64,000 nucleotides of DNA, taken from positions 434,001 to 498,000 of the forward strand of contig NC_134033.1 in the NCBI RefSeq assembly GCF_964204645.1, read 5' to 3'. Positions within the stretch are counted from its first letter, which is position 1; the number at the start of each line of letters is the position of its first letter. The notes beneath the pieces were generated by a model, which made no database searches, was not told where the DNA came from, and saw nothing but the letters and a program-made list of their open reading frames with translations. Both the position numbers and the translations under genes were made by a program. The DNA is from Tubulanus polymorphus. Lineage: Eukaryota > Nemertea > Palaeonemertea > Tubulaniformes > Tubulanidae. Below, in pieces: positions 1,166 through 31,600 of the stretch.

Positions 1166-1504
1166 ATTTCTAGGGCAGGCGACATCGAAAACTGGAGACG
1201 GTTGACCTTAATTTCAAAGAATTTTATTATGTAATTTGTGCATATAAAAACTGGTTCGATAGACGACACGTGATACTAACCCAGACAAACGTGTGCGGAG
1301 TCGTATGATTTAGTACTAACTATCCAGGCACACAGTTTTAATCTACACTGGTAACCTGAACAACCTACTAGTATCCTGAACCTACTGGTAACCTGAACCT
1401 ACTGGTAACCTGAACCTACAGGTAGGCTAGCGAAATGGATATAAATTTCAACGGTAGAAGAGTACTCGTGACAGGTGCGGGTAAAGGTAAGTATGAATTT
1501 AACA

Positions 1505-1810
1505 CCACTAGGGGGCAGTATTTCAATGTATCTGTAATTCTAGTTTGTCCCGCTAGGGGGGGGGGTATATCTATTCTATTTTGTCTATTGATATGTATAG
1601 GTCCCGCTAGGGGGCGGTATATGTATTCTAGTTTGTCTATTGACAGGTATAGGTCCCGCTAGGGGGCGGTATATGTATTCTAGTTTGTCTATTGACAAGT
1701 ATAGGTCCCGCTAGGGGGCGGTATATTTATTCTAGTTTGTCTATTGACAGGTATAGGTCCCGCTAGGGGGCGGTATATGTATTCTAGTTTGTCTATTGAC
1801 AGGTATAGGT
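1505..1810 (+). repeat. 52-bp minisatellite in DCXR-A intron 1 carrying CTCF-like motifs
   Basis: Five copies of a ~52-bp unit containing CCGCTAGGGGGCGGTA (cores near 1549, 1603, 1654, 1707, 1759; the first has a G run instead of GGCGG) follow one isolated CCACTAGGGGGCAGTA at 1505-1520. The cores match the CTCF consensus (CCAC/GCTAGGGGGCG) on the plus strand. Each unit also contains TATTGACAGGTATAGGTC or a variant, which is the exon 2 acceptor plus the first bases of exon 2. Confidence 0.8.
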
Positions 1811-2319
1811 CGGTGTTGCGTGAAAATATTGGTTAAATGTGGAGCTTAAGTTGTGGCCTTGTCGCGTACACAATCTGACCTTGACTCACTGAAACAAGAG
1901 GTATATGACCTTCATACATTGAATGACGTCACTAATCAAACCGTGTGATGTCATAAGGGGGATTTATGGAGGCCGCCATGTTTTACCGGAATGGTATATC
2001 CAGTATTTTTGATATTTCACAGTTTTCTGATATTGAGACGATTTGTCTTGATTTGAGAGATTGGAAGAAGACACGTGACGCGATAGAGGGCGCTTTACCT
2101 ATAGATCTATTGGTTAATAATGCAGCGCTGAAAAACCCGGATGGACCTCTGTTAAACGTCACTGAACAAAGTTTCGACGAGAAAGATTTGAGACAAACAC
2201 ACATCGCGTGTCACCCGAAATCCTGAAGTGTTAAATTGTGTTTTGATTTGATTTTATTTCTAGCACGATGAACGTGAACGTAAAATCAGTGATTAACGTA
2301 ACTCAGGTAACACGTGATC

Positions 2320-2412
2320 AAACACTTACTTTTCACTTATTTAAACAGTCACGTGATCAAACACTTCTCACATATTCAAACAGTCACGTGATCAAACACT
2401 TCACACATATTT
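2320..2412. repeat. Short tandem repeat with CACGTGATCAAACACTT
   Basis: Three imperfect ~30-bp copies of CACGTGATCAAACACTT plus an AT-rich spacer lie in intron 4 of DCXR-A. Copy B has the same words at its inverted position (12340-12390), so the repeat predates or accompanied the duplication. Confidence 0.6.
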
Positions 2413-3107
2413 ACATCAACAGAGATTGTTTTGTGAATTTTCTATAGGCCTATTTTGTTTTTTGAAGGTCGTTGCTAAGAATTTGATCGATCGTAAAATT
2501 CCCGGTTCAATAGTGAATATCTCCAGTATCCTGTCGACTCGGGATTTGAATATTCCCATGGATTCTTATTCGATGAGTAAAGCTGCATTGGACGCGATGA
2601 CTCGACTTGGAGCGGTACAATTTGGACCGCACGGGGTACGTACATTACCGGGGTATTTCAGCTATTGCCGGGGCTTGACTTTGAATCCGAATGTAACGTA
2701 TGTAAATACCAAAATACCAAATCATTGGAATTTAAAACTGAAATCAACTAATAAAACTGAATAGTGAGTTCTATCTAAGGTTTCGACTTGAAACAGCGCC
2801 AGCGCTTTAAGGGGTAACAACATTTTTGGCTCCGTTAAAAGAACGTTACGATTTGCCGGGTACTAGGCCTACTGTGTAAAACTGTTTTCAGATAAGGGTG
2901 AACTCTGTGAATCCGTGCACGACTAAAACACAAATGGTTATCGATCACTTTATCGAAGGCCCGCCGGAAATGCGCAAAGCAATCGACGCTCAGGTGAAAA
3001 GAATACCTCTAGGCAAACTGGCAGGTGAGTTCACATCGCGTCATAGTGGCCGGAAAACTAAAATGTCATGTTGATGCCATTAGACGGCCAATGCGAAACT
3101 ATGGTAG

Positions 3108-3292
3108 AAGATTTCTATCTGTCACTGTTTCTATCTGTCACTGTTTCTATCTGTCACTGTTTCTATCTGTCACTGTTTCTATCTGTCACTGTTTCTATCT
3201 GTCACTGTTTCTATCTGTCATTAGTTTCTATCTGTCATTAGTTTCTATCTGTCACGGTTTCTATCTTCTATCTGTCATTATCTGTCACGTCA
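3108..3292. repeat. 16-bp minisatellite
   Basis: About ten copies of TTTCTATCTGTCACTG (later copies TTTCTATCTGTCATTA) lie in the last intron of DCXR-A. The long open frame through it is a consequence of the repeat and not a gene. Confidence 0.8.
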
Positions 3293-3547
3293 CGGCTATG
3301 TGACAGCTCTTTACTCGGTTTGTCAATTTGATGTATATATTTCACAGAGGAACAGGACATGGTTGATATGATAGTGTATTTGTTGAGTGACCGATCTAAG
3401 ATGGTTAACGGTCAGTGTATCTACGTCGATGGAGGATTCACAGCTACTTAATTCAAGAGGTTTTACATTGTGTTTCAACCTTATGTAATAATTGAGTAAT
3501 AAATAGGCAAAATATTTCAAAATTTGGTCTTGGTTTGATAGTCGTAG

Positions 3548-3945
3548 TTTCCCATTCACCGAGAGGTGGCGCTCCAGCCTGGTCGCGGAGAGGTGGCGCT
3601 CCAGCCTGGTCACGGAGAGGTGGCACTCCAGCCCGGTCGCAGAGAGGTGGTGGTTCTCCAGCCCGGTCGCGGAGAGGTGGCGCTCCAGTCCGGTTGCGGA
3701 GAGGTGGATCTCCAGTCACGGAGAGGTGGCGCTCCAGCCTGGTCACGGAGAGGTGGCGCTCCAGCCCGGTCGCGGAGAGGTGGTTCTCCAGCCCGGTCGC
3801 GGAGAGGTGGTGGTTCTCCAGCCCGGTCGCGGAGAGGTGGCGCTCCAGTCCGGTTGCGGAGAGGTGGATCTCCCGTCACGGAGAGGTGGCGCTCCAGCCC
3901 GGTCACGGAGAGGTGGCGCTCCAGCCCGGTCGCGGAGAGGCGGAG
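3548..3945 (+). repeat. 27-30-bp minisatellite with AGGTGGCGCT motif
   Basis: About 14 copies of a GC-rich unit (GAGAGGTGGCGCTCCAGCC, then C/TGGTCGCG) lie just downstream of the DCXR-A stop codon. AGGTGGCGCT resembles the core of the CTCF binding site. Units of 27 and 30 bp keep several frames open on both strands, which generates spurious Arg/Gly/Pro-rich reading frames of up to 142 codons. Confidence 0.8.
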
Positions 3946-4178
3946 CTCTAAAGGAACGGAAAAAATGTTAACCGACAACTTGAGACAAGAATGATACATT
4001 TAGAGATTTACCGAATTTATCCCAAATGACAAAAATACAGACTCTACAAATATTTACGACAGTTTTCGATTCTTTTTCAAAGTCATCGAATTCAATATCA
4101 CCGGGTTATATCTTATTCCATCTAGGTGGAACTAGAGATTAGCAAGAGCTCCTCTAACTCGAATCTGTTTAATGTTTG

Positions 4179-5549
4179 TTACAGATCACGTAGAGCTAGT
4201 GAGGTGAACATGTAACAGAAGTGGATTACTCCGAGCGTTATAAGTATAGCGGGGTAGCCGACGAATGGTTGGACGGCTCCGGCTAATATAGTCAAAACGA
4301 TACTGGTGACGCGACACATCAACAAATCTACGGCAAAAAGCGTCTCGTAGTTACCGTGGAATTTCTGATCGGTAATGTCTGACAACCAAGAGTGGAAGAA
4401 CGCTCCTAGTAAACTGAACGCCAGCGTGCACAGACCATCCGGAATACAAGCCTGCCAGATATTCCCGATAAACGGGTACGTGAATGCCGACGTCGCGGCC
4501 AGAAGGCAATAGATCAAACCGTAAATCCAGCGGTGGCTGCGAGTTTTAGAAACGATACAGCCGAATATATTCGTGCTGAAGACGAATAAGATAGCTGATG
4601 TGAGACGGACTGTGGCCAGTTGCCAGTAATCAGTAGCGACGTGTTCAATTATCCAAAACGGTACCAAACTAAAATAGACACTGCAATAAACATCAGCGAT
4701 CGTATTAAACCCCAGTAATATCAGAGTTTGAGGATCGGTCAGCATCGCTTTCACTAGACTCAGTTGAAACGGTTTTTCGATCGCGTCGGAATTCATCGCA
4801 TCGTCGCTACGATTATTGTCGATTCTAACGGCGGCGCGGATTATCGTCGTTAATCCCAGAGCCGAAAACAGGATCCAGAACGGGGCCGAACGCCCGATCG
4901 ATTGGATCACGTATAAACACACCGAATAGCCCACAGCTGCGCCTGAGAATCGACAGCTATATATGATAGCTAAAGCTATGATTCGGGTGTCTGGGTTTCG
5001 ATCGTAAGCGACTGAGACCATCGTAAGTCCGGAGTTTAGAATGAACGCGACGGAGACGCCGATGAGCGAGTAGGACGCGGCTAGGATCCACCAGTAAATC
5101 GGGAACACCGATACCAGTGTAGCTACGAGTCCGGTAATCAGGCCGCACCAGAACGGATTCACATACCCGTATTTATACGTCAGTCTACCGCAGAGGATAT
5201 TCCCGATTATCAGCCCGAAATGATAAGCGGATTGAGTCGTGCCTATTTTAACCGCGATTTGCTGATCATCGGGAGACGTTTGGTTACCGGCGGCAGTTTC
5301 GTGAAGTAAATCGGTAGTAACCGTTAAGATAGTCCCGGCCGTTAATTCAACTATGAGTAAAGCGGCACTAACGATAGTTACTATCAGTACAGGACTACAT
5401 TGACGCTGGCAGTTACAGCTGCTATCCGTCTGCTGGTGTCTGTCAGGTGACGATATCGTATCCGATATAGTCCCGTAATATTCATCGCTAGTCGATGAAT
5501 TGTCTTCTATCAAACTCTCTTTCATCCTATCAGTTTTCTGTCGAGACAT
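4179..5549 (-). CDS. SLC18-like vesicular amine transporter-type MFS protein, intronless
   Basis: A single uninterrupted frame of 456 codons starts at the ATG at 5549 (MSRQKTDRMK); the frame stays open 12 codons upstream but without another ATG. It has a ~60-residue Ser/Asp-rich cytosolic N-tail, then about twelve hydrophobic helices. Family marks are those of vesicular amine/acetylcholine transporters: an N-glycosylation site (NQT) in a luminal loop after helix 1, an MFS motif A-like GRLTYKYGY after helix 2, GRSAPFWILF in the middle, then TDPQTLILLGF, WIIEHV...WQLA, NIFG and GYPAILITLGV in the second half. By eye, Asp of helix 1 (LLLDNML in VMATs) and Asp of helix 10 (VDSSMM) are replaced (VELTAG; SLLGAFF), while Asp in helix 11 seems kept (FAVDLL). 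The substrate may therefore not be a classical monoamine. Lack of introns fits either a retrocopy or the compact VAChT-type gene. It sits between the two inverted DCXR copies, transcribed leftwards. Subfamily and substrate are uncertain. Confidence 0.72.
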   Translation of the reverse strand: MSRQKTDRMKESLIEDNSSTSDEYYGTISDTISSPDRHQQTDSSCNCQRQCSPVLIVTIVSAALLIVELTAGTILTVTTDLLHETAAGNQTSPDDQQIAVKIGTTQSAYHFGLIIGNILCGRLTYKYGYVNPFWCGLITGLVATLVSVFPIYWWILAASYSLIGVSVAFILNSGLTMVSVAYDRNPDTRIIALAIIYSCRFSGAAVGYSVCLYVIQSIGRSAPFWILFSALGLTTIIRAAVRIDNNRSDDAMNSDAIEKPFQLSLVKAMLTDPQTLILLGFNTIADVYCSVYFSLVPFWIIEHVATDYWQLATVRLTSAILFVFSTNIFGCIVSKTRSHRWIYGLIYCLLAATSAFTYPFIGNIWQACIPDGLCTLAFSLLGAFFHSWLSDITDQKFHGNYETLFAVDLLMCRVTSIVLTILAGAVQPFVGYPAILITLGVIHFCYMFTSLALRDL

Positions 5550-8172
5550 TTTATTTATCTGTTCGTTATTACGAGACTTACACAATCGATATGGGTAACA
5601 CTTATAATGTGATTCCTTTTACGTCAGGCTTTATGGTATAGGCTAACATAGATCAACGAAATACTGGTTTTCAAAACTCGAAAGTTGGAAAAAATTTTGA
5701 TACAACAAGAACCTTTAAAACCTTGAAAACAATAACGCATAGGTATATTGCATATAACACTGTGACCCGCTTTACGTCAGGATTTATGGTATATCAACGA
5801 AATACTGGTTTTCAAAATTCATAAGTTGATTTAGGAAAAAATATTATACAAAAATTAGTCTAGCATTTATGTAAAGGTCTTTCTATAAAGAAGGATTGAT
5901 ATTGAGTGTATTCACGCCACCCAGACAGATAGACATTGGTGGGGCGTCGGAGGACTGGAAATAATCTATAAACTCCCCTGGCTCCCCTCCCCTCCCTTCG
6001 AATTTTCAAAAATTGCTCGAAGGTTACAATTTCTAGAGATAACAAAATCGCTGACCACAAGAGGATTTCTTTTAGGCCTAATGATATTTATAATTGTCGA
6101 AATTCTGATATATAACAGTAATATTGTTAATAGTGTCGGAATGATGATAAAAGCCTGAGATACTAATAGCTAAACACTTACTATAGGTAGAATTAATGAG
6201 AGGTCACGGGGACGAGCAGAAAAATGGAGACTGCGAGTGGCTTTGAGCTGACGATATAAAGAGTGTCCAAATTTACATGGGTTTTATCAAACATAAAAAT
6301 ACCATTGAACAAAATACAAATACCACAAGTAGGCATGACAAAAATTACATTCGAATGATGAATTATTGGGCGGTGTCCATGGGCGCTGTTCATTGGGCTC
6401 CATCCATGGGCGCTGTCCATCGGGCTCTTTTAGGGTGACAAGGGGTATCTGTATATGAAGCCTGCAACCTGAAATACTAGGCCCAGTTCCACTGATGGTT
6501 GAAATAAGATCAGGTTCAAATTTCAAATCAACTGATTTTGACCAAAATATATTCTATAAAATCTAATTGAACGAGCAATATCCAAGCAATAACTATCAAT
6601 CATAACTATCTGTAACTATCTGTAACTATCTGTAACTATCTGTGGAACTGGCTCCCGTAAAATTGTCCTACCTGACTATCTCTTCTCACTTTCTTTACGG
6701 CAGTTTTTTATCAATGCCCTGTTGAATCAACCAGTACTCAGTGAGCCAAATTTCGTGTTGCGAAAATATCTTCCAAACGAAAACGCTTTGCGTGAAATGT
6801 TTTTAGTTTTATGTAAGTCCAAAGTGAACCCGTCAGTATTTAAATGTCATCACCGTTTAGAAAAGTTGATTTCGTCCTGAAAAAAAAAGAATAATCACAT
6901 CAGAATTTTTGAAATATAACCCGTGAAATCTGGAGAAGCCATGACGAGAAGTTTGTCGACGCTAGGCGGTGACAATTCGGGTGAAATAAGTTTGACTTCA
7001 TGCTGGACTCATCTTAAACGAAAATATTTATTTCAAAGCTCTCGTTGACAGAGGGGACACAGGGCACAAAGGGCACGAAGGAGACAGGGCTATAGGGCAC
7101 ATAGGCACACAGGGCACAAATGAGACAGGGCTACATGGCACATAGGGCCACAGGGCACACAGGAGACAGGGCTATAGGGCACATAGGTACACAGGGCTAC
7201 AGAGGGCCACTACAGGCCGGTCTAGGGGTTGCGGCGTGTGCGAGGAATTCTAGCATCGAATTGTTTTAGTTGCCACGAGTTACGCGCGTGAAGGTATTCA
7301 TGTCGCGAGGGGTAACGGACCTCACCCTCCTCTCGCTAATAGCAACTAGATTCCATTTGTTGAATTAAACACGGGCTCAATAGATTAATATCTCAACATC
7401 AAACAATAAAGTTGATGAGTTTATAATCAGACGGTGGTTCCAGTCAATTAATGATCAAATTCAATGATTTTTGATTCTAAATAAAAGCGAGAAGCCTCCG
7501 TTGATATTCACTAACCTCCTGTTTTAATCGTTTAATCCCTTAATTACCGGATAATCCCGCTTAATCCACGAGCTATAATGATTAATCACTGATGAATGAA
7601 CTTTGAACTTCGAACTGACATCGACACGGTTCCGATTGTTGCGTTGCTAGGTTACGGGAGGCGGTGACGACACGAGCAGCGCTCGGGTCGCGACGATCCC
7701 GTCGCAGTGGGATTCGAAAGTTCGAAATTGATTTCAAAAACACATTTCGACAACACTAATTCAACTTTGGACATATTTTTTGTAAATTTCAAGAATGAAT
7801 AGAAGGCAGATTCGGTCTCAGTGTAGATTATTTAATCATTAAAAAGTTAATCAGTTACTGAGTAATGGCTGTAGTGTATTCAAAACTTGACCGACAGACC
7901 GCCCCGTACACCCTTCGCTAAAGCCCGACCCCTGTAACTCTAGGATACCCCCAAGTCTCCGGCAACACGTACATAATCGCAGTTTGTTGCCGAGAAGCGA
8001 TTAGAACTGCGCAACCTACAACAATAGGTCTGCCTATACCTCACTAGTGAAATGTATTAAATAATTATACTTACTAAGTTCCGTTTATTGCCTGTTGCTA
8101 AGATGAGGCATTCCGAAGAAGAGTCCATGAAGTTTATCTGTGTTGGTGAGGGGTCTCAGTGAAGGCTGAACC
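5550..8172. other. Gene-poor interval with short repeats
   Basis: No convincing gene. It holds two diverged copies of TTTATGGTATA...CAACGAAATACTGGTTTTCA (5625-5670 and 5780-5820), a two-copy GGGCTCCATCCATGGGCG block (6370-6425), a terminal-inverted-repeat MITE (6479-6655, separate entry) and an imperfect GGGCACA/GAGACAGGGCTA tandem (about 7050-7205). Sequence from 7240 to 8170 shows no pattern I can name. Confidence 0.5.
6479..6655. mobile_element. MITE with GGCCCAGTTCCAC termini
   Basis: The left end GGCCCAGTTCCAC is mirrored by GTGGAACTGGCTCC at the right end. Just inside the right end is a short ACTATCTGTA tandem (6605-6643). It belongs to the CCAGTT-ended fold-back family found at several other places in the window. 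Confidence 0.55.
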
Positions 8173-8526
8173 ATGAGAATATATTTGGCCCCTGATTTTG
8201 TTGGGCAGCACGAATGCGCCCAGCGGAACCCAGATTGTTTGGAGTTGTCTATATTGTGTTATCCTCGGCGTTTTGACGTCGAGGTCTTTCAGATACTGAA
8301 GCCTCATCGATCAAAATACCCGTCAGATGATTCCAAACAGCAGCAGCAGTTTGTTAAACCCATGTGGTGTCGTCCAAGACGTAACACATATAGTCGCCGG
8401 CCAATCATTGGACAGGTTCGAGAGAGAGAGCGAATGTTAGGTGAAATGCGGTCAGCCATTGTGGAAAATGTTCGACTTGTTTTACACGAATTCGGGTCAT
8501 CTTCTCGTTTGAATACGTTCACATAA
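8173..8526 (+). CDS. Possible small ORF of unknown function
   Basis: A 117-codon ATG-initiated frame, basic in its middle (CRPRRNTYSRRPIIGQVRER) and ending HEFGSSSRLNTFT. It includes a short CAG run (QQQQ). Composition is less repetitive than the minisatellite frames around it. I recognise no domain, splice signals were not resolved, and a shorter frame overlaps on the minus strand. It could be a fragment of a transposon ORF, a real small gene, or chance. Confidence 0.2.
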   Translation: MRIYLAPDFVGQHECAQRNPDCLELSILCYPRRFDVEVFQILKPHRSKYPSDDSKQQQQFVKPMWCRPRRNTYSRRPIIGQVRERERMLGEMRSAIVENVRLVLHEFGSSSRLNTFT

Positions 8527-8748
8527 AACACAATAGATTTGACCTCCATCCCAACCAACAATATGTATATCAAAGTGGATATTTACTGGACATATCATAT
8601 TGTTTATAACTTCAAGATTTTTCACATATAAATGTTTACACCCCAAGCACAATAGGACCAGGACCGGTGTAACAACATAGGACCGGTCTAACATAGGACC
8701 GGTGTAACGCCATTCTTGGCTGTGCACGCCCTCCCCCCGTTTTCTGTT

Positions 8749-9831
8749 CTATTTAGAATCACACAGATAATTTATCAGTAAAATCTGTTTAGCTCTTTTT
8801 CTAAAGGCGCCGTTTGTTGCGCAATAAACGAAGAAATTTGCGGATGAGTCTAAAACACTGAGCAGAATTCCTACTTTACGCATGATCATTTGTTTATCTA
8901 AAGGTAAATTATGATGCAATCCATACACCCTTTTGAAGTTAACTAACATACGGTCCAGTGATGCGGGAATTTCACAGATAAAAAACAGAAATACAATTAT
9001 AAGAACCAGTTTTAATATTTTGAGTTCGGTAGATTTGTCACCGGGCGCCGCCGCGTCCGCGTGAAATTGTTTCTTTCGATTTAGTTTTCTAAATATCATA
9101 ATTCCGAACAAAGTTAGATTTATCACAATTAGAAAAATAAAAGGTACAAGAACAGTCATGAAAATATAGGAATTCTGAATGTATTTCTCTGAAGCACTAA
9201 GCTTATAATTAAAAGGTGTTCGATATGTTTTCGCTCCAAAAGCTCCCATTGTATATAAACGTAGCAAACAGAGTCGTGTGGTCCTTCCTGGTAAACGTTG
9301 AGGAAAATAATACGGCCAGTAACAAACAGCGGAAGAAAATGCGTTTAAAACCGACAGAAAGATGATCTGTTTTTTGTTCCAGAATCGCCTGAAATACAGC
9401 GGACTCCCGACTACCAGAAGTCTTTCAAAATTGATTATAACTACGGCCCAATTTTTTGCCATTTGAAACGTATGAAACAGTGGTAGAACCCAAATTATAA
9501 TTTCGCGTCCAAAAAGCCAATCATCGAAACGGCCGAGAACACTCGTATTTTGTAGATTATGGATAATCAATATTCGAAGTGGATAAAGAAGAAACACTGA
9601 AAATAGAAACAGTAAATCAAACCAGGCGAGAATGATTATAGTTTGATAAGTGGAGCGACCTATCTTTGTGAATACTAGAATAGAAGCAGAGTTTAGAAAC
9701 ATTCCGCAAACTGTAGCCGGAAAATATCCGTACAAGTAAATACTGTAACTGAAAACGTGTTTCCATCGTTTTGGTGGAAACCAGTCGATGCATATGCTAA
9801 CTGTAGTCGTGGTGATTGTGGTAGAATTCAT
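8749..9831 (-). CDS. Class A (rhodopsin-type) peptide GPCR, intronless
   Basis: 360 codons starting at ATG 9831 (MNSTTITTTT, with an N-glycosylation NST at the extreme N-terminus); eleven open codons lie upstream without an ATG. Seven hydrophobic segments are evident. Family landmarks: helix 2 AWFDLLFLF (the conserved Asp), helix 3 end INFERLLVVGSPL (ER in place of DRY, followed by a PL-type loop), helix 5 FIFLIVINLTLF, helix 6 VFLFFICEIPA and helix 7 SVLDSSANFFVYC, the peptide-receptor variant of NPxxY. A basic C-tail follows (FRKRAKQ). The pattern resembles FMRFamide/myosuppressin-type and other expanded protostome receptors; the ligand cannot be deduced. The single-exon structure is common for such lineage-expanded receptors. 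Confidence 0.8.
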   Translation of the reverse strand: MNSTTITTTTVSICIDWFPPKRWKHVFSYSIYLYGYFPATVCGMFLNSASILVFTKIGRSTYQTIIILAWFDLLFLFSVFLLYPLRILIIHNLQNTSVLGRFDDWLFGREIIIWVLPLFHTFQMAKNWAVVIINFERLLVVGSPLYFRRFWNKKQIIFLSVLNAFSSAVCYWPYYFPQRLPGRTTRLCLLRLYTMGAFGAKTYRTPFNYKLSASEKYIQNSYIFMTVLVPFIFLIVINLTLFGIMIFRKLNRKKQFHADAAAPGDKSTELKILKLVLIIVFLFFICEIPASLDRMLVNFKRVYGLHHNLPLDKQMIMRKVGILLSVLDSSANFFVYCATNGAFRKRAKQILLINYLCDSK

Positions 9832-11227
9832 GTTGAAGCAGACCAGTGTCTCCGCAGTAACCACGCCTCTCTCTGCTGCGTCTCTCGTCTCGCCCTATCA
9901 TCAAATCTACTCTCAACACGAGCTGTGAACTATCATCCGATGGAGAATAAAATATGAATTTAAATATACGGTGCGTAGTGCTGGAAAATGCAGATTTGAC
10001 AAAGATGAATCTCTATTATGTCGTATTTCAGTTCAGGTGACTCTCACTATACCAGATACACGTTTTGTGAAGATAAACTTGGTACAAGCCAGTCTCATTG
10101 CATTCATCCAGAAATAAAGCAGCTTTTTTTATAAAATCCATTAGAAAAACCGACACAATTATGCGTACCTCCTATACACTTTATGAACAGTCAATGAAAA
10201 ATTCCCCATCTTTTAAATAGGTAATTTATGGCGTCTGATTTGGCCCGTACTAAACAATTTTCTGTACGGCTAGATGAACAATTTCTACACTGTATATTGG
10301 GCCACGTTTTGGTTTTGTCTTTCCTCCAGCCGTAAAGAAACAATTTTAGTATGGCCCGAATCAGCAGCCACAAGTTTGACAGAAGGCCTTCAAGCCGCAA
10401 AAATGAACAAAGTTATTGCGATAAACCCACACAACTGTAGAACTGGATCCAGGGTCAAATTAAACTCACACAACTGTGGAACTGGATCCAGGGTCAAATT
10501 AAACTCACACAACTGTGGAACTGGGTTCAGAGTCAAATTAAACCCACACAACTGTGGAACTGGGTTCAGAGTCGAATTAAACCCACATAACTGTGGAACT
10601 GGGTTCAGAGTCAAATTAAACCCACACAACTGTGGAACTGGGTTCAGAGTCGAATTAAACCCACATAACTGTGGAACTGGGTTCAGAGTCCAATTAAACC
10701 CACACAACTGTCAGATTGAACTATCTTAAGACTAAAATGTGGTCTTAGGATTTAAGATCAAATTTTGGACTGTGCAGCTGAGTCCCTCGCGGTTCCCCAG
10801 TCTCCGAGTTCAGATTGTACTCTTTTAATTCTAACCCAGAGTTAACTCTAACTCACAGCTGTGGAACCGCGGGCTGGTCCAGGGTGACTGGCTGATCGGT
10901 TTCGAAGGGAACGCCGAATTAAGACACATTGATATCGGTTGTTAGCATGAAATTGTTTATTTATTTGCACTAAACAGAAGTTCGTCTCTCAAAAACTACA
11001 TTTCATAAAATATGAATAAAAAACAATCATTTATTTCACATAAAATCACAATCTATTCAACAATAATCCAGTTGTTACTATAGTGATTTTTACACTTCCG
11101 GTTTCACGAAAAGTTAAACTCAATTCAGTTTGTTGAATAGTCGCTGAAATTGGGCAATAATTCAAACTTAACCGTTTTTAGCTGGAAAACTTTTTCACGA
11201 AACCAAACCCTGTTGGGGTATTATGTT
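9832..11227. other. Interval with 39-bp minisatellite, no gene seen
   Basis: Apart from the tandem array at 10430-10715 and a degenerate CCAGTT-family fragment near 10850-10880 (GCTGTGGAACCGCGGGCTGG), I see no coding or RNA feature. The AT-rich part next to DCXR-B (10940-11227) probably contains its 3' UTR. Confidence 0.4.
10430..10715. repeat. 39-bp minisatellite
   Basis: About seven copies of a 39-bp unit built from CACACAACTGTGGAACTGGG plus TTCAGAGTCAAATTAAACC. Because 39 is divisible by three, both strands stay open (151 and 105 codons); these frames are repeat artefacts. The GTGGAACTGG word is also the terminus of the MITE family in this window. Confidence 0.85.
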
Positions 11228-13365
11228 CTAAGCAATAGTAAAACCACCGTCGACAGGGATTGACTGCCCGTTTACCATCTTAGATCGGTCGCTTAATAGA
11301 TAAACTATCATATCCACGATATCCTGTTCATCTGCGAAATATAAATAAATATATAACTGAGCTCGAAATCGACAGTTGATGTTTATAAGAGTTTACAAGT
11401 AAAAACTGAGATCACATCACATCAGTAAAACTGAGCTGAAATAAAATATCAGCAAAACTCACAGGATTTGGGTCCTCCCCCTCCCCAAGAAAATTTTGAA
11501 AATTTGAAGCGTTTTAGATGGATTTGTGTCCGACCAATGTTAGTGAATATTTCATATGAAATTTCGCTGAAATTTAATCTGATAAAAACTTTCTTCGGCT
11601 AAATTAGCGGAACACGAGATCTTGCGGGGATGTGTGTTAGCACCTAATGCACCCCCCCCCCCGGGTACGGGCTTGTGAGGATATGATCATTTATTCTGAC
11701 GGATCTTTTACTAAACTTCATCAGCAAAGAAAAACGAAAATGTTTTTTCATCGTTTTCACTGACGATGAAAATGATGATGAAAATTTGTTAAAACTCCGT
11801 GTTGGTTTTGCTCACGGTTAAGTTTGAAATACTGAGATTGATATCTGAGTATCACGTGACCTATGATACCTGCAAATCTTCCCGTCGGCGTCCGTTTCAA
11901 CTGATCGTCAAACATCGTCTGTATTTCCGGTGTGGCTGTGAGCACGTGATCTAAAACGAATCGGGTCAAGGTCGTCCCTGCTATTATAGAGTTCACTCTT
12001 ATCTGGAGACAAACAAATAAACAATAGCATCAACAGAATGATGTGTCAGATCCTCGGAGTCCCTGGTTCGAATACTTTAACCGGTGGGCCCAAAAACTGC
12101 CCCAATAATTTACGTACCCCGTGCGGTCCAAATTGTACCGCTCCAAGTCGCGTCATCGCGTCAAGGGCAGCTTTACTCATTATATAGGAGTCGACCTTCA
12201 AGTCGAACCCACGAATCGACCCGATACTGGAAATATTCACTATCGAACCGGGAATTTTACGATCGATCAAATTCTTAGCCACCACCTTCAAAATACAAGA
12301 AATAGAAAATTCACAAAAAAACTCTGTTGAAGTTTGTGAGAAGTGTTTGATCACGTGACTGTTTATATATGTTTGATCACGTGACTGTTACCTGAGTTAC
12401 GTTAATCACTGATTTTACATTCACGTTCATGATCCTAGAAATAAAATCAAATAAAACACAATTTAACACTTCAGGATTTCGGGTGACACGCGTTGTGTGT
12501 TTGTCTCAAATCTTACTCGTCGAAACTTTGTTCAGTGACGTTTAACAGAGGTCCATCCGGTTTTATCAGCGCCGCATTATTAACCAATAGATCTATAGGT
12601 AAAGCGCCCTCTATCGCGTCACGTGTCTTCTTCCAATCTCTCAAATCAAGACAAATCGTCTCAATATCAGAAAACTGTGAAATATCAAAAATACTGGATA
12701 TACCATTCCGGTAAAACATGGCGGCCTCCATAAATCCCCCTTATGACATCACACGGTTAGATTAGTGATGTCATTCAATGCATGTAGGTCATATACCTCT
12801 TGTTTCAGTGAGTCAAGGTCAGATTGTGTACGCGACAAGGCCACAACTTTAGCTCCACATTTCACCAATGTTTTCACGCAACACCGACCTATACCTGTCA
12901 ATAGACAAACTAGAATACATATACCGCCCCCTAGTGGGACCTATACCTGTCAATAGACAAACTAGAATACATATACCGCCCCCTAGCGGGACGTATACAT
13001 ATCAATAGACAAACTAGAATACATATACCGCCCCCTAGTGGGACCTATACCTGTCAATAGACAAACTAGAATACATATACCGCCCCCTAGCGGGACCTAT
13101 ACATATCAATAGACAAACTAGAATACATATACCGCCCCCTAGCGGGACCTATACATATCAATAGACAAACTAGAATACATATACCGCCCCCTAGTGGGAC
13201 CTATACATATCAATAGACAAAATAGAATAAATATACCCCCCCCCTAGCGGGACAAACTAGAATTACAGATACATTGAAATACTGCCCCCTAGTGGTGTTT
13301 AATTCATACTTACCCTTACCCGCACCTGTCACGAGTACTCTTCTACCGTTGAAATTTATCTCCAT
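11228..13365 (-). CDS. DCXR-like short-chain dehydrogenase, copy B (intact)
   Basis: Seven exons with GT-AG borders: 13365-13314, 12894-12797, 12674-12517, 12434-12392, 12285-12118, 12002-11870 and 11331-11228; 756 nt, 251 residues. This is a classical SDR of the L-xylulose/dicarbonyl reductase group (human DCXR is 244 residues), expected to reduce dicarbonyls or L-xylulose with NADPH. Motifs: TGAGKGIG (residues 13-20), ALSRTQSDLDSL after strand 2 (the Arg-Thr seen in NADPH-specific members), NNAA, NISS, and catalytic Tyr and Lys in SYIMSK. The ends PVDGGF and IVDMIVYLLSD are typical. Unusual: after strand 6 the usual NP/PG motif is replaced (NSIIAGTT, versus NSVNPCTT in copy A), so cofactor or substrate contacts there may differ. 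Intron 1 is largely minisatellite. Transcribed towards copy A. Confidence 0.85.
12895..13296 (-). repeat. 52-bp minisatellite in DCXR-B intron 1 carrying CTCF-like motifs
   Basis: Seven units with TATACCGCCCCCTAGCGGGA or the AGTGGGA variant (cores near 12925, 12978, 13031, 13083, 13136, 13189, 13240) plus one isolated TACTGCCCCCTAGTGG at 13280-13295. This is the reverse complement of the DCXR-A intron 1 array, with a different copy number. Each unit again includes the exon 2 acceptor word. Confidence 0.8.
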
Positions 13366-22671: not shown

Positions 22672-25600
22672 TCAGCGCCGACCTGAAAATATGAGACAAA
22701 ACATTATTTTAGTAAAATTTAGATCAAAAGGGAAATGATTACAGAAGATTTAGTTTTCAGGATGAATGGTCAGTAAGGGAGGGGAGAGGGGGGATTGGTT
22801 ACAGGCAGGGAATTTGTTAAGATGTTTTATATTCAGACAAATGCCTCGTTTCTGTCGTCATTAACTATTTTACAAGTTTTAGACTCGTCATCTGTTGATG
22901 TCATCATTTCATATAAAACACTCCAAAACCAAACCCCCCGGAACTGAGTGAGTTTAATCAATAATACTGACCTCCGCGACCTCCTCGGCCACCACGACCT
23001 CCGCGATAACCTCCTCGACCTCCTGAAAAATAATCAGACGCATTCATTAACAATTAGTGCGGGAGAGATCAATTCGCTGATGGCAGGGGTGACAGGTTTG
23101 TAGTATGAATCAGTCCTATCATTGTAAACAAGCTTCATTTATAAATAGCTTCAGAAAGTATTCATCATTTTCATACTTCAGTCAGAAGTCAGTTTTGAAA
23201 TGAATTTCAGTTAGAGAGTAAATAAACCTACTGTTCAAGCCACATACAGTTGAACCTCGTGAATATGATTTACGCACAGCCAAGGGCTGGTAATCCAAGT
23301 GGAAGGAAGTTGTGACAGCCTTCACTTGTGCTCACGAAAATTGTATCCACAACTAATTCAGCTGAGGAAAAACACTTACAACCCCCCCCCCCCCAAAAAA
23401 CACAATAAATACCCCTACCCCACCAGGAACAGAAGGAGGTATGAAATCAGTCCTATCATTGTATCAGCCACACGGGTCAAAATAGGCGGTGAAAGGTTCA
23501 TCATGTTTCATACCACACACAGCGCCCCCTAGAGGTGTTACTTACCAGACGGGCATTCTCTGCTGAAGTGACCGGGCTTTCCACAGTTGAAGCATCCACC
23601 GCCTCCACCACCGCCTCCACTTCCTGTAACAAACAGAACAAGAGAATATTCATTAGATTTCCTGTTGTAGTTAGTAAACGGATCAATAGATGTCGCTAGT
23701 TGTTACTTACGTCCACCGCCGCGCGAGGAGCCACCAGACGGACATTCACGACTCATGTGACCGGAACCTCCGCAGTTAAAACATTTCATACCGCCACCTA
23801 TAAACATAAAACACCGTTAAACAACGCCACCTACAACGTAAACTTGAATACCAAATACAACAACGATCAAACTGCATCTATCACAGAGATAAATACAGTG
23901 AATAAAACAGTGGAATCTCAGATTCGCTGATTCCGTGAAGTTTGTTGTGGAATCTCAGATTCGTTGATTCTGTGAAGTTTGTTGTAACGAGGTTCCACTG
24001 TACAGGAATCACACAATAAATAAAACATTTACTGTTCACACGCAGACATCACTTCACTGGATTCGTCACTATTTCTATATGCAATTCAATTGACACTCAA
24101 GTGTGAGTGATCATTTGAAGAAGTCCTCACTGAAGTCAATTCTTTATACTCCAAAGAATAATTCTTAGTCTTCATAAGGATATCAGGATTGGGACGACTG
24201 AATGAAGCATGATTATTTTAACTGGGTCGTTCGTTTATATAATGTCAAGTAACTAAATTGCTGCAGTATCAATTTATGCCGAGTTTAACCGGTTTAGCTT
24301 TAATTATGCCGAGTTTAACCGGTTTAGCTTTAACTATGCCGAGTTTAACCGGTTTAGCTTTAACTATGCCGAGTTTAACCGGTTTAGCTTTAATTAAAGC
24401 GAAGTTAAAAGCGATCATGAAAATTTGCTTAACGGAAATCTTTAAGCGCAAGCAATAATAGAGGGTAATTAGAAAGGTTTTAAATATTGTGGGGCCCAGT
24501 TGCAGCCATTAAATATAAGGATTTCAAGAACCTTTAAAGCAATTTCTGTTTTAAAGGAATTTTTTTAAAGAACTAAGGAATCTCTGGACCCTGTTGAAAA
24601 TGAAATACCAGTCATCATAGATATTCAGGATTTGAGTGAAATTAAACCGATTCGGAACTCTCTGAATTGTAATAAACCGAGGTGAGGGTGAGATCAGATC
24701 GGTTTTAAGAAACAGCAGTTAGAGCAACTGGGTCCTCATCATCATCAATGCTTGTTTTAAAACATGCGCCGAAAGGAAGCAAAGATAAAATTATAATAAT
24801 AATTCTTCATTGAGAATAAAACTAGAAGGTTGTGTATAATAATACAACATGAAAAATACAACAACTACTACTGACCGACTGACTGACTCAATATATACAA
24901 TCTGCAGCCTGCCACATCATACCTGCAGCCTGCCACATCATACCTGCAGCCTAACTCAACCCACCTACAGCCTAATTCAACCCTCTGACTGACATCTGAA
25001 CATCCACAAGCACAATACCATCAAAACATTTCTCATTGTAAAAGTTATAAATCATCTGGTTCCAGTTTAGGCAAAAAACAGCCGCTGAATAAGGCGTAAC
25101 TTCTTCGCGAAACAGGAGCCATTTTCTCTTATATCTGTGTGCAGTAGAGTTAAAGAGGGGTCGAGGGTCGCAGGCTGCAGATACAGGTATAATGATAAGA
25201 GAGTATAGTACTACTACATGTAAGCCTCAGTGTGTGTGTGTGTGAACTAACTCACTTCCACTTCCACGTGGACAATCACGTGATATATGTCCTTTCCTCC
25301 CACACGAGAAACAAGTCGTCGGACCACCTGAACACAAGAGACACGAATATCAATCATTCTTCATCTTTCAAACTACCACCGTCGACCAGTTAGCTAGTCG
25401 ACCGGCTTATTTTACCAGTCGACAAGGAACCTTCTCTATACGTACTGTCCTCCCTACCAGTAAGCTTGCCGTGTACCCCCTCCCCCGCCAGTGAGCAAAC
25501 CCCTCCCTCAAATCTTTATCTAATTTAAAGATTTATCAAATTGAATAAATCTAGTTGTTTATTTCGATACATACCGCTGCTAGGACAGTCACGTCCGATG

Positions 25601-28600
25601 TGTCCCACTTTACCGCAATTGAAACATTTTTCTGCAACACAGGAGACAGAAACGGCACTTTTAATCTAGTAACCATCTTCTAATCGGGCAATACAAAAAT
25701 CCAGCAACCAAATCTATCGATTTAGTTTAATGTTTTGTTTCTCAGAATCAATAGAGTTTCAGGCATTTAGCTCAAAGAGTTTATCAAGCACAAAAAAGCA
25801 TTTTCCATTTTTGAAGGTGAGTTTTTAACCCTTTCAGTGCATAGTGCGCCGGCACTATAGCATATATGTATTTATAGTTATTCAACACACACTAGGGTGG
25901 AATTCTTCAAAATTTTCAAATTATCTCCAGCACTATAGGATATTAATTAGTCGCCACTGAAAGGGTTAAGGTATCAGTGAGTTCTAAGAAATAATTTCAC
26001 TTCGTTTTTCTAGTAAACTTACTGGAATCTCCTCCGTATCGACCTCCTCCACCTCCTCCTCGACCTCCGCGACCTCCTTCACCTCTCTTAGCGGCGAACA
26101 TTAACTGAACTTCTCGACCGTCGATTTCTGTTCCGTTCATTTTCTCCATCGCTGCCTTCGCTTCATCGACAGAATCGAAATCAACGAAACCAAATCTATA
26201 AAAAAAAACGCAACAATGCGATAAATCCACCAGTTGTCGCCAGTGGTTACTCAGTTACCGCGCTTCAATTTCTTCAATACTACATTAAGCAGCGCTATAG
26301 CGACCCGTTTAACCAAACTTAGTTCATCTCGGACCTCAAAGGACCAGGGACTGGCTGCATAGTCACGGCTTAGACTTAAGACCAGTCTAAGACCAACTTA
26401 GTTCTATAGCCAATCTAACAGTTTAAGACCAGTCTTAAGACCACTTTTGGACTTAAGTCACGACCGTGCAACTGGCTAAAGCTGACTAGATCAGAGCCAT
26501 AGATCATTGCCCGTGGGACCAGACTAAACCTCCGAGGAGGGGGAGAAATTGAATTCTGGAGCAGTCGGAGTGAAATGGGTCAAGGTGAAGGTTGTAGTAT
26601 GAATCAGTCCTATCATTGTAAACAAGCTTCATTTATAAATAGCTTCAGAAAGTATTCATCATTTTCATACTACGCGATAATCCGAGAGACAATTGGCGCC
26701 GAGGCCGATAAGTAACCTAGCGGTAAAACGATAACCCGTAAAAAGACTTACCCTCGAGATCTGTTAGAACCGGCCTCTTTAACAACGCGAGCGTTTTGAC
26801 CGTTGAGATCGGCGAATGTCTCCGCAAGAGTTTCTTCGGTCGTATTGAACGATAGATTCTTAATCCACAGAATCTTAGATTCAGACGGGGCATCTGTAAA
26901 ATAGACAGAACAAATAGATTCAATACAACACTGCTGTCTAATAGACAGAATAGATTCAATACCACATCGCTGTCTATTAGACAGATTCAGTACACCATAC
27001 AGACACACTGTCTAATAGACAGAACAAATAGATTCAATACCACACCGCTGTCTATTAGACAGATTCAGTACACCATACAGACACACTGTCTAATAGACAG
27101 AACAAATAGATTCAATACCACACCGCTGTCTAATAGACAGATTCAATACACCGGACAACACTGTCTAATAGACAGAACAAATAGATTCAATACCACACCG
27201 CTGTCTATTAGACAGATTCAGTACACCATACAGACACACTGTCTAATAGACAGAACAAATAGATTCAATACCACACCGCTGTCTAATAGACAGATTCAAT
27301 ACACCGGACAACACTGTCTAATAGACAGAACAAATAGATTCAATACCACATCGCTGTCTATTAGACAGATTCAGTACACCATACAGACACACTGTCTAAT
27401 AGACAGAACAAATAGATTCAATACCACACCGCTGTCTATTAGACAGATTCAGTACACCATACAGACACACTGTCTAATAGACAGAACAAATAGATTCAAT
27501 ACCACACCGCTGTCTATTAGACAGATTCAGTACACCATACAGACACACTGTCTAATAGACAGAACAAATAGATTCAATACCACACCGCTGTCTATTAGAC
27601 AGATTCAGTACACCATACAGACACACTGTCTAATAGACAGAACAAATAGACTCAATACCACACCGCTGTCTATTAGACAGATTCAGTACACCATACAGAC
27701 ACACTGTCTAATAGACAGAACAAATAGATTCAATACCACACCGCTGTCTAATAGACAGATTCAATACACCGGACAACACTGTCTAATAGACAGAATAAAT
27801 AGATTCAATACACCTTAACAAACTCTGTCTATTAGACAGAGTTGTGACGGACAATCCGTCTGGTAGATTGAACACAATATGAGGTGTAATAACACAACTC
27901 AAACAAAATAGATAACATACAAACTGACTCAGAAATAGACAGTATACTGACAGGACAGACAGTCAGGGATAGACAGCATACTGACAGGACAGACAGTCAG
28001 GGATAGACAGCAGTATAAAACTGACCTGTTGCTCCACGTGATTTCCTGCGTTCTGTCGCCTTGTCGATATTAATCTCATTATCACCGATCTTCAGTCCGG
28101 CTTTCTCTTTGATGTTCTTATCGACCAATTCTTGAGTTTCAAAACGCACGTAACCAAACCTACAAAACAGTGCCAGACACACTGAATTCAAACTACTCCA
28201 CCAGGGGGAGTTATTACAGCACTAGGGAGTATCTGAATTCAAACTGCTCCACCAGGGGGAGTTACTACAGCACTAGGGAGTATCTGAATTCAAACTGCTC
28301 CACCAGGGGGAGTTACTACAGCACTAGGGAGTATCTGAATTCAAACTGCTCCACCAGGGGGAGTAACTACAGCACTAGGGAGTATCTGAATTCAAACTGC
28401 TCCACCAGGGGGAGCTGGAGTTTACAGGGGGAGCGTTGTGTAAATAAAGCCTTACTTGATATTTTTGCCCTCATTTTTAGGGGGTAGAAAAGCGCAGACG
28501 GATTCCGGGAATAATTCCATCAGTTTATCCTCGGTGATATCAGACGGCAAATTACCGACGAATAAAGATGGCTTCTCTTCGTCCGGTACTGAAAACAACA

Positions 28601-31600
28601 AACAACAACAACAATATTCAGCACACATTGTTGTAATTACCCAGCGAGTTGCCAAGCGACGTGAACGCCGGATCAAGACGTACCTTCGACTTTCTGTTTT
28701 TTAGCCGGCTGTTCGTCTTGTGATTTCCTCTTTCGTTTTCCGGTCTCTGAATCGCTTTCAGCTGAAATACAAAAAACCATCGATGAAACATTGAGCCTCA
28801 AAGCGCGAACGAGAGAGGGCGCCACCTGCCGTTTATAACGCGGTGCTGCCATCTATCAGTACGACGAGAAACTACGACGAATCTTCCGGATGATTACACT
28901 ACCTTCATCATCATCATCTTCATCATCGTCATCATCATCTCCGTCTTCCTTATCATCATCATCTTCATCGACAGCAGCTGCTGTTGTTGTTTTAACTTCC
29001 TCACTCGCCGCAGTCTCCTCCTCCTTTTCCTCTTCTATAAAAACAACACATAAAATATCAATTCACCAAATTTATTGATCTCACCTCGCCGGGCATCGGA
29101 TATCTTACCCTCATCATCATCATCGTCATCATCATCATCACCTTCCTCTTCAGCTCCATCTTCCTCATCATCATCATCATCACTTTCCTCTTCAACCTCT
29201 ACAGCTGCGGTGACTGCTGCTGTACCGTTACCGTTTAACTCAATTACTAAAACACAACCAAAAATATTCAAATATAAAACTCATACACGCCGAGGAGGAA
29301 AGTTGTCATCATTCTCTCTAAATCTCACCATCATCTTCACTTTCCTCTTCATCGTCATCGTCCGACTCTTCTACTTTCTTAGCCGGGGTTTTCTTCGCGG
29401 CTGGTGTTGCTTTTTTAGCGTTGGCCGGTTTGCTTTTAACCGGGGTCGGTTTCACCGGCTCAATTTCCATCACTATGAAATACAGATCACGTGACGCGTG
29501 AGAATTCAATCAGACCCGGAAATTATTATATATCTCTAGAAATATCTGTTTCACAACATGAGATCAGTTTGAATTTCGAAACGACGAAATTCAAACTGTT
29601 AAAATCAGACCTCGTTGAAAAGTGAAGAGTTTAATTTAGCACGATGTCTGGCCCGATAATCTATAGAGTAAAATAATCGGGAATTTATTCATGCGAAACA
29701 ACAACATGTGGAGACTAATAGGTTCCCTCAGCGACCGGTCCGATTGTTCTCAGAGTACCCTCAGAGACCGGTCCGATTGTTCTCAGAGTACCCTCAGCGA
29801 CTGGTCCGATTGTTCTCAGAGTACCCTCAGCGACCGGTCCGATTGTTCTCAGAGTACCCTCAGCGACCGGTCCGATTGTTCTCAGAGTACCCTCAGCGAC
29901 CGGTCCGATTGTTCTCAGAGTACCCTCAGCGACCGGTCCGATTGCTCTCAGTTTCCCAACTGCTTCAAGACCTCCATGACAATCACCCCCTCCCCCCACA
30001 GGGGAGAATTATTTTCAGAACTCACCCTCATCTTCCTCCTCTTGTTCGGGTACAACTTTAGCTGGTGCTGCCTTCTTCGACTGTCTTCCCTACGAATGAT
30101 AGAATAAACATCCATTTTAATTTCGAATCCTAGAAATTCCATCCAATCGTCACAAACGCGATAAACTCTTCATTCGTTTCCTCTCGGCTGAAACCTCTGA
30201 ACCTTTCAACGTTAAAACAAATCTAAAACAAATCTTTCGTTAATTATTTTCATATCAAAAGACGAAGATTTTTTTTTTGTTTACACAAAAGTTTTATTAG
30301 CGTATTCAGATTTCGAACAAACTACCGCTCTTTCGATACGCGCGCTGCTTCTCACGACCACGACAAAAATAATAAACTCTCTTTAAAACTGAGTTGAGGA
30401 GAACTTACTCACCTGAAGCGTGTAATTGTAGGAGAGGCCATTGACACCAGTATATCCATAGTAACACGTACAGTACAGCTAGCCTACACAGTATTACACA
30501 ACTGAGATTTACAACTCAAATCAGGCAATCATCATCATCAACAACTCTCGAAAAAACCATCAGTCAAACCACCTAGCCGTTATGTTGCTCGATGATTGCC
30601 AGATTTAAATCATAAATCACTCACGCCCTTGGACTTTATTAAAATCCGGCACAGTCTGGCCATTCTCTCTACGACAACTCGGACTGTCTCGCGTGAACCT
30701 ACAAATAGGCTCAACTTCTCTCGCGGTACTTCCTCTAGGTAACTAACGCCAATATTCTGACCTCGTAAAAAACCTCAAGCAGCCGTACCTCGTTAAGAGG
30801 TCAAACCTCCGGTAACACACTTTATGGTAACACCGGCCTGCCTCTCCGCAAGAGGCCAAACCTCTTTAAACTCTGTACAATGGTAGCACTCGAATAGAGC
30901 CCAAATCTCATTCATAACTCAGACACTTCTCAACTGTTCTGCCCTGTTTTACTTTCACATTCATAAAGCCTCAAAGCATTAAGAGGGTCACATTCATATC
31001 TCGAAACTCAGACCATACGTCATCATCTCTACATAGCAGTCGCCAGAGGGCAGCAGGGTAGCCGCCCCTTTACAAGGTATCTTTACATCTCATGGGTTTT
31101 ACTGTTCCCTCATCTCAGACAGAGGTATCTCCTTTCAGCAGGGGGACAGGTATCTCAGCATCAGAGGGGGGACAGGTATCTGCTCTCTCAGCATCACGGC
31201 CAAGGGGGGGGCAGGATAGCTAAGCTCTTACAACTCTAAAATTTTCTCACTGGGTCAGTGTGGCCACTTTCCATTAATTTAAGTTTTCCACAATTCTTTT
31301 CTAGATTTTGCAGATTTACAGAGTTTTCCAGGTCAGTGGCCGCCCTGACTAATTAGTTAGGCAGGTTTCACATACACTAATACATTCCAAAAGCTTCCCT
31401 TAAATTAATGGGGCTAAATCAGAAAAATTTAAAAATTCTCAAAATTCTCATCAAAATCCAACAATTCAAAACATAAAAAATATTTTTCCATAAAACGTTT
31501 TTATCAAATCTATAAATTTAAGTTTCAATTTGAATCAGGTATAATTGAATTGATGAATCTGTATGAGAACAAAAGCTCGTCCTCGTGTTCCTCACCTCGT

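Follow-up and report, generated by a model that had tools for sequence, protein, structure and literature searches.

Tandem arrays of CTCF-like sites in the first introns of an inverted DCXR gene pair in the nemertean Tubulanus polymorphus

The first introns of two neighbouring, inverted copies of a DCXR gene in Tubulanus polymorphus each carry a head-to-tail array of strong matches to the CTCF motif, and we consider it probable (about 70%) that these arrays arose from a single intronic site, were copied along with the gene and face each other as a result of its inversion. The ancestral DCXR would have held a lone CTCF-like site in a very short first intron, and a 52-bp segment reaching from this site across the 3′ splice site and 9 bases into exon 2 would have been duplicated in tandem to produce the head-to-tail array. 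Duplication of the gene would then have carried the array along, giving the inverted pair DCXR-A and DCXR-B as well as a truncated DCXR fragment on another chromosome, and the 5′ halves of DCXR-A and DCXR-B would have been homogenised recently, most simply via gene conversion. Convergence of the two arrays across an MFS transporter gene and a receptor gene would be a product of the inverted duplication. The sites would be bindable by the CTCF protein of the host and, if bound, could serve as clustered directional insulators. We infer the order of events, the conversion and the binding from sequence.

The window, by which we mean the whole stretch of 64,000 nucleotides analysed here, is C9:434001-498000 of a 267.8-Mb genome. 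A CCCTAA array opens C9 (the telomere repeats are CCCTAA/TTAGGG), which places the window ~0.43-0.50 Mb away from the chromosome end. Both strands were scanned with a vertebrate (human) rather than a nemertean CTCF matrix, JASPAR MA0139.1. In all, 17 matches reached 16 bits or more. Among 100 dinucleotide-Markov shuffles the average was 0.14, with a maximum of 1; the reversed window had none, and column-permuted matrices gave a mean of 0.24 in the window. Twelve of the 17 fall inside the two DCXR intron arrays (Table 1). Matches above 14 bits number 22 in the 64-kb window and 2 in 60 kb of local control sequence, and tandem repeats cover 22% of the window compared with 7.5% of control stretches. 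Genome-wide, the strict core CCRSYAGGGGGCRSTR occurs 156 times, more than 100-fold above composition expectation, whereas the same pattern read backwards, of equal composition, occurs 0 times.

Table 1. Features of the DCXR region, the rest of the window and the dispersed carrier element. Positions are those of the window unless a chromosome is named; scores are matrix scores.
Feature	Position	Strand	Details
DCXR-A	1435-3451	+	7 exons: 1435-1486, 1803-1900, 2023-2180, 2264-2306, 2468-2635, 2892-3024, 3348-3451
CTCF-like array A	1502-1775	+	DCXR-A intron 1 (1487-1802); 6 motifs: 1502, 21.3 bits; 1601, 1653, 1705 and 1757, 17.5 bits each; degenerate unit at 1547, 8.6 bits
52-bp tandem repeat	1547-1811	+	5.1 copies
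27-bp minisatellite	3561-3948	+	Downstream of DCXR-A; 14 units
MFS transporter ORF	4179-5585	-	Single exon; between the arms
7TM-receptor-like ORF	8749-9864	-	Pfam 7tm_1, E 2.3e-05, below gathering score; between the arms
DCXR-B	11228-13365	-	7 exons; intact 251-aa frame; every donor and acceptor present
CTCF-like array B	12922-13298	-	DCXR-B intron 1 (12895-13313); 8 motifs, 7 scoring: 13280, 21.3 bits; 13182, 13026 and 12922, 20.5 bits; 13130, 13078 and 12974, 17.5 bits; degenerate unit at 13250, <8 bits
Single CTCF-like site	23520-23538	-	19.9 bits
Third CTCF-like array	28182-28417	+	51-bp period; 5 sites, 13.8-19.8 bits; spacer unrelated
Single CTCF-like site	28817-28835	-	16.5 bits
Single CTCF-like site	31037-31055	+	16.4 bits
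Single CTCF-like site	33686-33704	-	20.5 bits
Single CTCF-like site	52188-52206	+	15.8 bits
Carrier elements of the 154-bp repeat (L162-L167)	e.g. C2:15790705-15793857

Of the 14 motifs in the two introns (6 on the plus and 8 on the minus strand), 12 score at least 17.5 bits, and each array has one degenerate unit. An initial annotation, made from the letters of the window, had described CCACTAGGGGGCAGTA at 1505 and five CCGCTAGGGGG units at 1550, 1604, 1656, 1708 and 1760, all on the plus strand, in DCXR-A intron 1, and eight units on the minus strand at 12937-13295 in DCXR-B intron 1. It had taken these motifs for matches to the bilaterian CTCF consensus and had supposed that tandem duplication built a CTCF cluster here. 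The units are as described, the degenerate ones being the CCGCTAGGGGG unit at 1550 and one of the eight in DCXR-B. The scan bears out the match to the consensus (17 against 0.14), and tandem duplication as the source of both clusters is well supported. Absent from that annotation were the array at 28182-28417 and the five single sites.

The 52-bp unit duplicates the intron-1/exon-2 junction: after the CTCF core come the 3′ end of the intron with its ACAG acceptor and then 9 nt from the start of exon 2 (GTATAGGTC). Since it spans the exon-2 acceptor, the copies carry additional 3′ splice-site sequence. Units end in TTGACAG joined to GTATAGGTC, although some in arm B read TTGATATG joined to TATAGGTC instead, and the AG has since been lost from several arm B units. 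A 45-bp edge unit at the array start aligns to the 52-bp unit, and therefore looks like the founder of the array.

A further minisatellite, downstream of DCXR-A, had been counted as CTCF-like at 3548-3945. Its 14 units and plus-strand orientation stand, but the CTCF-like identity does not. The exact AGGTGGCGCT is kept in 8 of the 14 units, and only the first (3556-3574) exceeds 6 bits, scoring 14.4 because its left flank differs (TCACCGAG). The remaining 13 score from -3.9 to 5.5 bits, so that by this matrix the array does not count as a CTCF cluster. No further copy of it was found in the genome.

The protein encoded by the gene pair is a short-chain dehydrogenase close to L-xylulose reductase, as judged by Pfam and solved structures, and L-xylulose reductase is matched by the DCXR-A-based protein. 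Codon 33 of the spliced DCXR-A frame is a stop, and exon 3 is followed by GA where a GT donor is expected; DCXR-A is probably a pseudogene. A motif like CCATAAATCCCCCTATGACATCATC near ATGGCGGCC lies in DCXR intron 2 (1935-1990 and 12700-12760), and a variant of this CCATAAATCCCCCTATGACATCATC/ATGGCGGCC type is found inside two large minisatellites of the window (54053-54312 and 57114-57445). Elsewhere, C2:6116725-6130694 holds eight tandem intronless short-chain dehydrogenase ORFs with 46-50% identity to the multi-exon DCXR of the window.

Identity between the two arms is 91-100% over the segment that begins with the promoter repeat and closes with intron 4. It drops to 83% in exon 5 and to 43-45% (near chance) over the stretch holding introns 5-6 together with exon 6, and stands at 77% in the final exon; within the inverted duplication lies a conversion-like block of 97% identity. 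This step would most simply reflect recent conversion of the 5′ halves between older inverted paralogs, a reading taken from the identity profile. Genome-wide, the 52-bp unit is confined to the two loci in the window and to C8:3.38 Mb. In the fragment there (C8:3.383 Mb), the upstream repeat of 17 bp and exon 1 lead into a degenerate array, beyond which the sequence is unrelated. Presence of the array in DCXR-A, DCXR-B and this fragment makes it older than at least three copies. At C8:12.18 Mb lies a DCXR copy without an array; its single site occupies the matching place in intron 1 and is disrupted by an insertion of one base. An insertion that looks LINE-like, read by eye, is found in the same intron, so that an array may have been lost rather than never present. 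Membership of the intron arrays in one dispersed repeat family was rejected, as the 52-bp unit occurs at three loci only and the spacers of other arrays are unrelated.

A CTCF gene is present in this genome. The best match of the human CTCF fingers lies at C3:3430376-3431720 (62% and 52% identity), and the joined exons align with all 11 fingers of human CTCF (E 3.6e-110). At helix positions -1, 2, 3 and 6, ZF3, ZF4 and ZF5 are identical to human, whereas ZF6 differs at three positions and ZF7 at two. Upstream of the fingers, DMDMSIYDFKEE aligns with DVDVSVYDFEEE of human CTCF (216 onward), and the YDF it contains corresponds to human residues 226-228; the 30-aa YDF segment alone had no PDB match, and a longer query matched. 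In the work of Li et al. of 2020, the YDF motif reportedly binds cohesin SA2-SCC1. A passage of PMC10656103 likewise attributes the contact role of YDF to Li et al. 2020. Together, the conserved fingers, the YDF motif and the count of 156 cores against 0 make binding plausible, and the intron array sites are good candidates for it.

Amplification of CTCF-like sites extends beyond DCXR. Same-strand pairs of strict cores number 20 at periods of 20-50 bases and 21 at 51-81 bases, at ~16 places genome-wide (the two window arrays and ~14 elsewhere) with mostly unrelated spacers, and many of these places hold genuine arrays whose periods range from 27 to 61 bases; closely spaced convergent and divergent pairs number 0 and 0 across the genome. 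Two very long arrays, each on one strand, lie at C1:31733000-31735100 (61-bp unit, 20.7 copies; L028) and C31:76200-77600 (53-bp unit, 17.8 copies; L041). Strict sites are strongly subtelomeric, with 26 of 74 loci on C1-C8 less than 1 Mb from an end, against 7.8% expected. Separately, a 28-bp tandem unit, AAGATGGCGGCCGGAAGTGACGTCATCC, which resembles joined YY1, ETS and CRE motifs, was seen at C3:12982181, C3:15484153, C3:15487780, C4:16012698, C4:16037659, C7:11151338 and C12:10447305.

Divergence pooled over 13 CTCF-like arrays is 4.7% in the motif and 4.5% in the spacer, with single arrays varying (L029 departs from the pooled picture in one direction, L030 and L036 in the other). The arrays were found via the motif, which biases the comparison towards a conserved motif, yet no conservation is seen, and purifying selection on the motif within arrays is unsupported. 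With the 154-bp family described below left out, 9 of 62 site loci lie in tandem arrays, compared with 5 of 60 control positions tens of kb away (p = 0.22); with that family included, the count is 16 of 69 (p = 0.02). Tandem pairs per site are about equal for the CTCF core (20/156) and for an unrelated YY1-like 13-mer (14/109). Preferential amplification of CTCF sites is thus at most about two-fold, and non-significant without the 154-bp family. Given the equal divergence, the control-like array rates and the YY1-like ratio, amplification looks passive, and the DCXR history suggests how one site can give rise to a CTCF-like cluster with no selection on the motif in evidence.

The same observations bear on a possible but doubtful alternative, namely that the arrays evolve neutrally as minisatellites, with a CTCF-like core that is not bound in vivo, or has ceased to be, and with a unit that expanded in a repeat-rich subtelomeric region. 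The high tandem repeat content of the window, the equal divergence of motif and spacer, the tandem ratio shared with the YY1-like word and the array rates outside the 154-bp family are all in keeping with it. Against it, the core exceeds its composition expectation by more than 100-fold and CTCF is present, so that a genic site of 17-21 bits is a good binding candidate. The intron sites are genuine motif matches; on the reading that we prefer, a single site amplified within DCXR, they were amplified passively, and a role in looping is possible.

The two arrays face inward, plus-strand on the left and minus-strand on the right, ~11.1 kb apart. The initial annotation had seen here a convergence across MFS and GPCR genes of the kind that favours loop anchoring. 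The layout, with the MFS ORF and a weak 7TM ORF in between, was confirmed; the meaning drawn from it is weakened, since the layout follows from the inverted duplication and the motif showed no signature of selection inside arrays. The clusters are convergent because array orientation is fixed within DCXR and the copies lie tail-to-tail. We regard it as unlikely that the arrays are a selected loop-anchor pair, in which tandem copies would act as strong cohesin barriers and their convergent layout would enclose the MFS and receptor genes in an 11-kb loop, in vertebrate fashion. High matrix scores, convergent orientation and a host CTCF whose core fingers are conserved and which has the YDF cohesin-contact motif speak for such a pair, as do the mammalian tandem CTCF sites that serve as insulators (PMC7087399) and the CTCF sites reported at squid TAD borders (PMC10658181). 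However, inverted duplication explains the orientation, as an inverted pair can only be convergent or divergent; DCXR-A has the look of a pseudogene; the motif is no better conserved than the spacer within arrays; opposite-strand sites are scattered elsewhere in the window too; and echinoderm TAD boundaries and loops do not show the orientation rule of vertebrates (PMC13317027). In spiralians, the rule has almost no direct support (PMC10658181). The broader proposal that tandem expansion of CTCF sites recurrently makes strong directional cohesin barriers in this animal, that the convergent rule holds beyond vertebrates and that the DCXR pair anchors a small loop isolating the MFS and receptor genes is very unlikely. 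That the repeat matters for splicing rather than for CTCF, by offering 5-7 competing 3′ splice sites, is highly improbable: each 52-bp unit does end in the exon-2 junction, with acceptor and 9 exon bases, but 52 is not divisible by 3, so that most upstream acceptors shift the frame, the AG is gone from several arm B units, and the same core occurs in unrelated arrays elsewhere without an exon-2 junction.

CTCF-like cores are also dispersed by another route. Seven of 60 sampled single sites sit in a 154-bp repeat that is found on every large chromosome, with 2549 first-look candidates genome-wide, 40 of which were scored; most units reach ~20 bits with a CTCF-like core. The window holds no copy. 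The carrier element is ~1.1-1.3 kb long with sharp ends, and contains 2.9-3.9 tandem 154-bp units, subterminal CCCACTTGGG/CCCAAGTGGG, a GACG-type microsatellite and a 3′ GGGACTAAAGTCCC palindrome. Its layout resembles that of the HINE/Helentron non-autonomous elements of oyster with embedded 140-180 bp satellite repeats, as described in part of PMC7492417, the shared traits being subterminal inverted repeats, a 3′ palindrome, a short-unit microsatellite and tandem units; in contrast, that part of the source makes no mention of a CTCF-like core per unit. By structure only, the carrier appears transposon-like and HINE/Helentron-like. It is separate from the DCXR arrays, and could seed thousands of CTCF-like sites.

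Near-identical inverted arrays and dense same-strand clusters make this a natural test locus for the orientation dependence of CTCF outside vertebrates, and several mammalian arrays invite comparison. The CTCF-bound DXZ4 macrosatellite (PMC3491370) is likewise a tandem array, although it is large, lies on the mammalian X and is unrelated to the DCXR arrays in sequence and scale. The protocadherin and Igh tandem CTCF insulators (PMC7087399) also have many sites in the same orientation, but these are spaced over gene-cluster promoters and were tested by editing, whereas the putative sites described here lie 52 bp apart in one intron. A further parallel is DXPas34 at mouse Tsix, a minisatellite with a CTCF site in each monomer (PMC3149622), in which short CTCF-site monomers also run head to tail within a gene; the likeness extends to copy number and site content, which differ among related species. 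DXPas34 has a 34-bp CpG-rich unit and a role in X inactivation, in contrast to the 52-bp intron-exon junction unit of an inverted gene pair. CTCF-bearing minisatellites are therefore already known from DXPas34 (PMC3149622), and the DCXR arrays are a further case.
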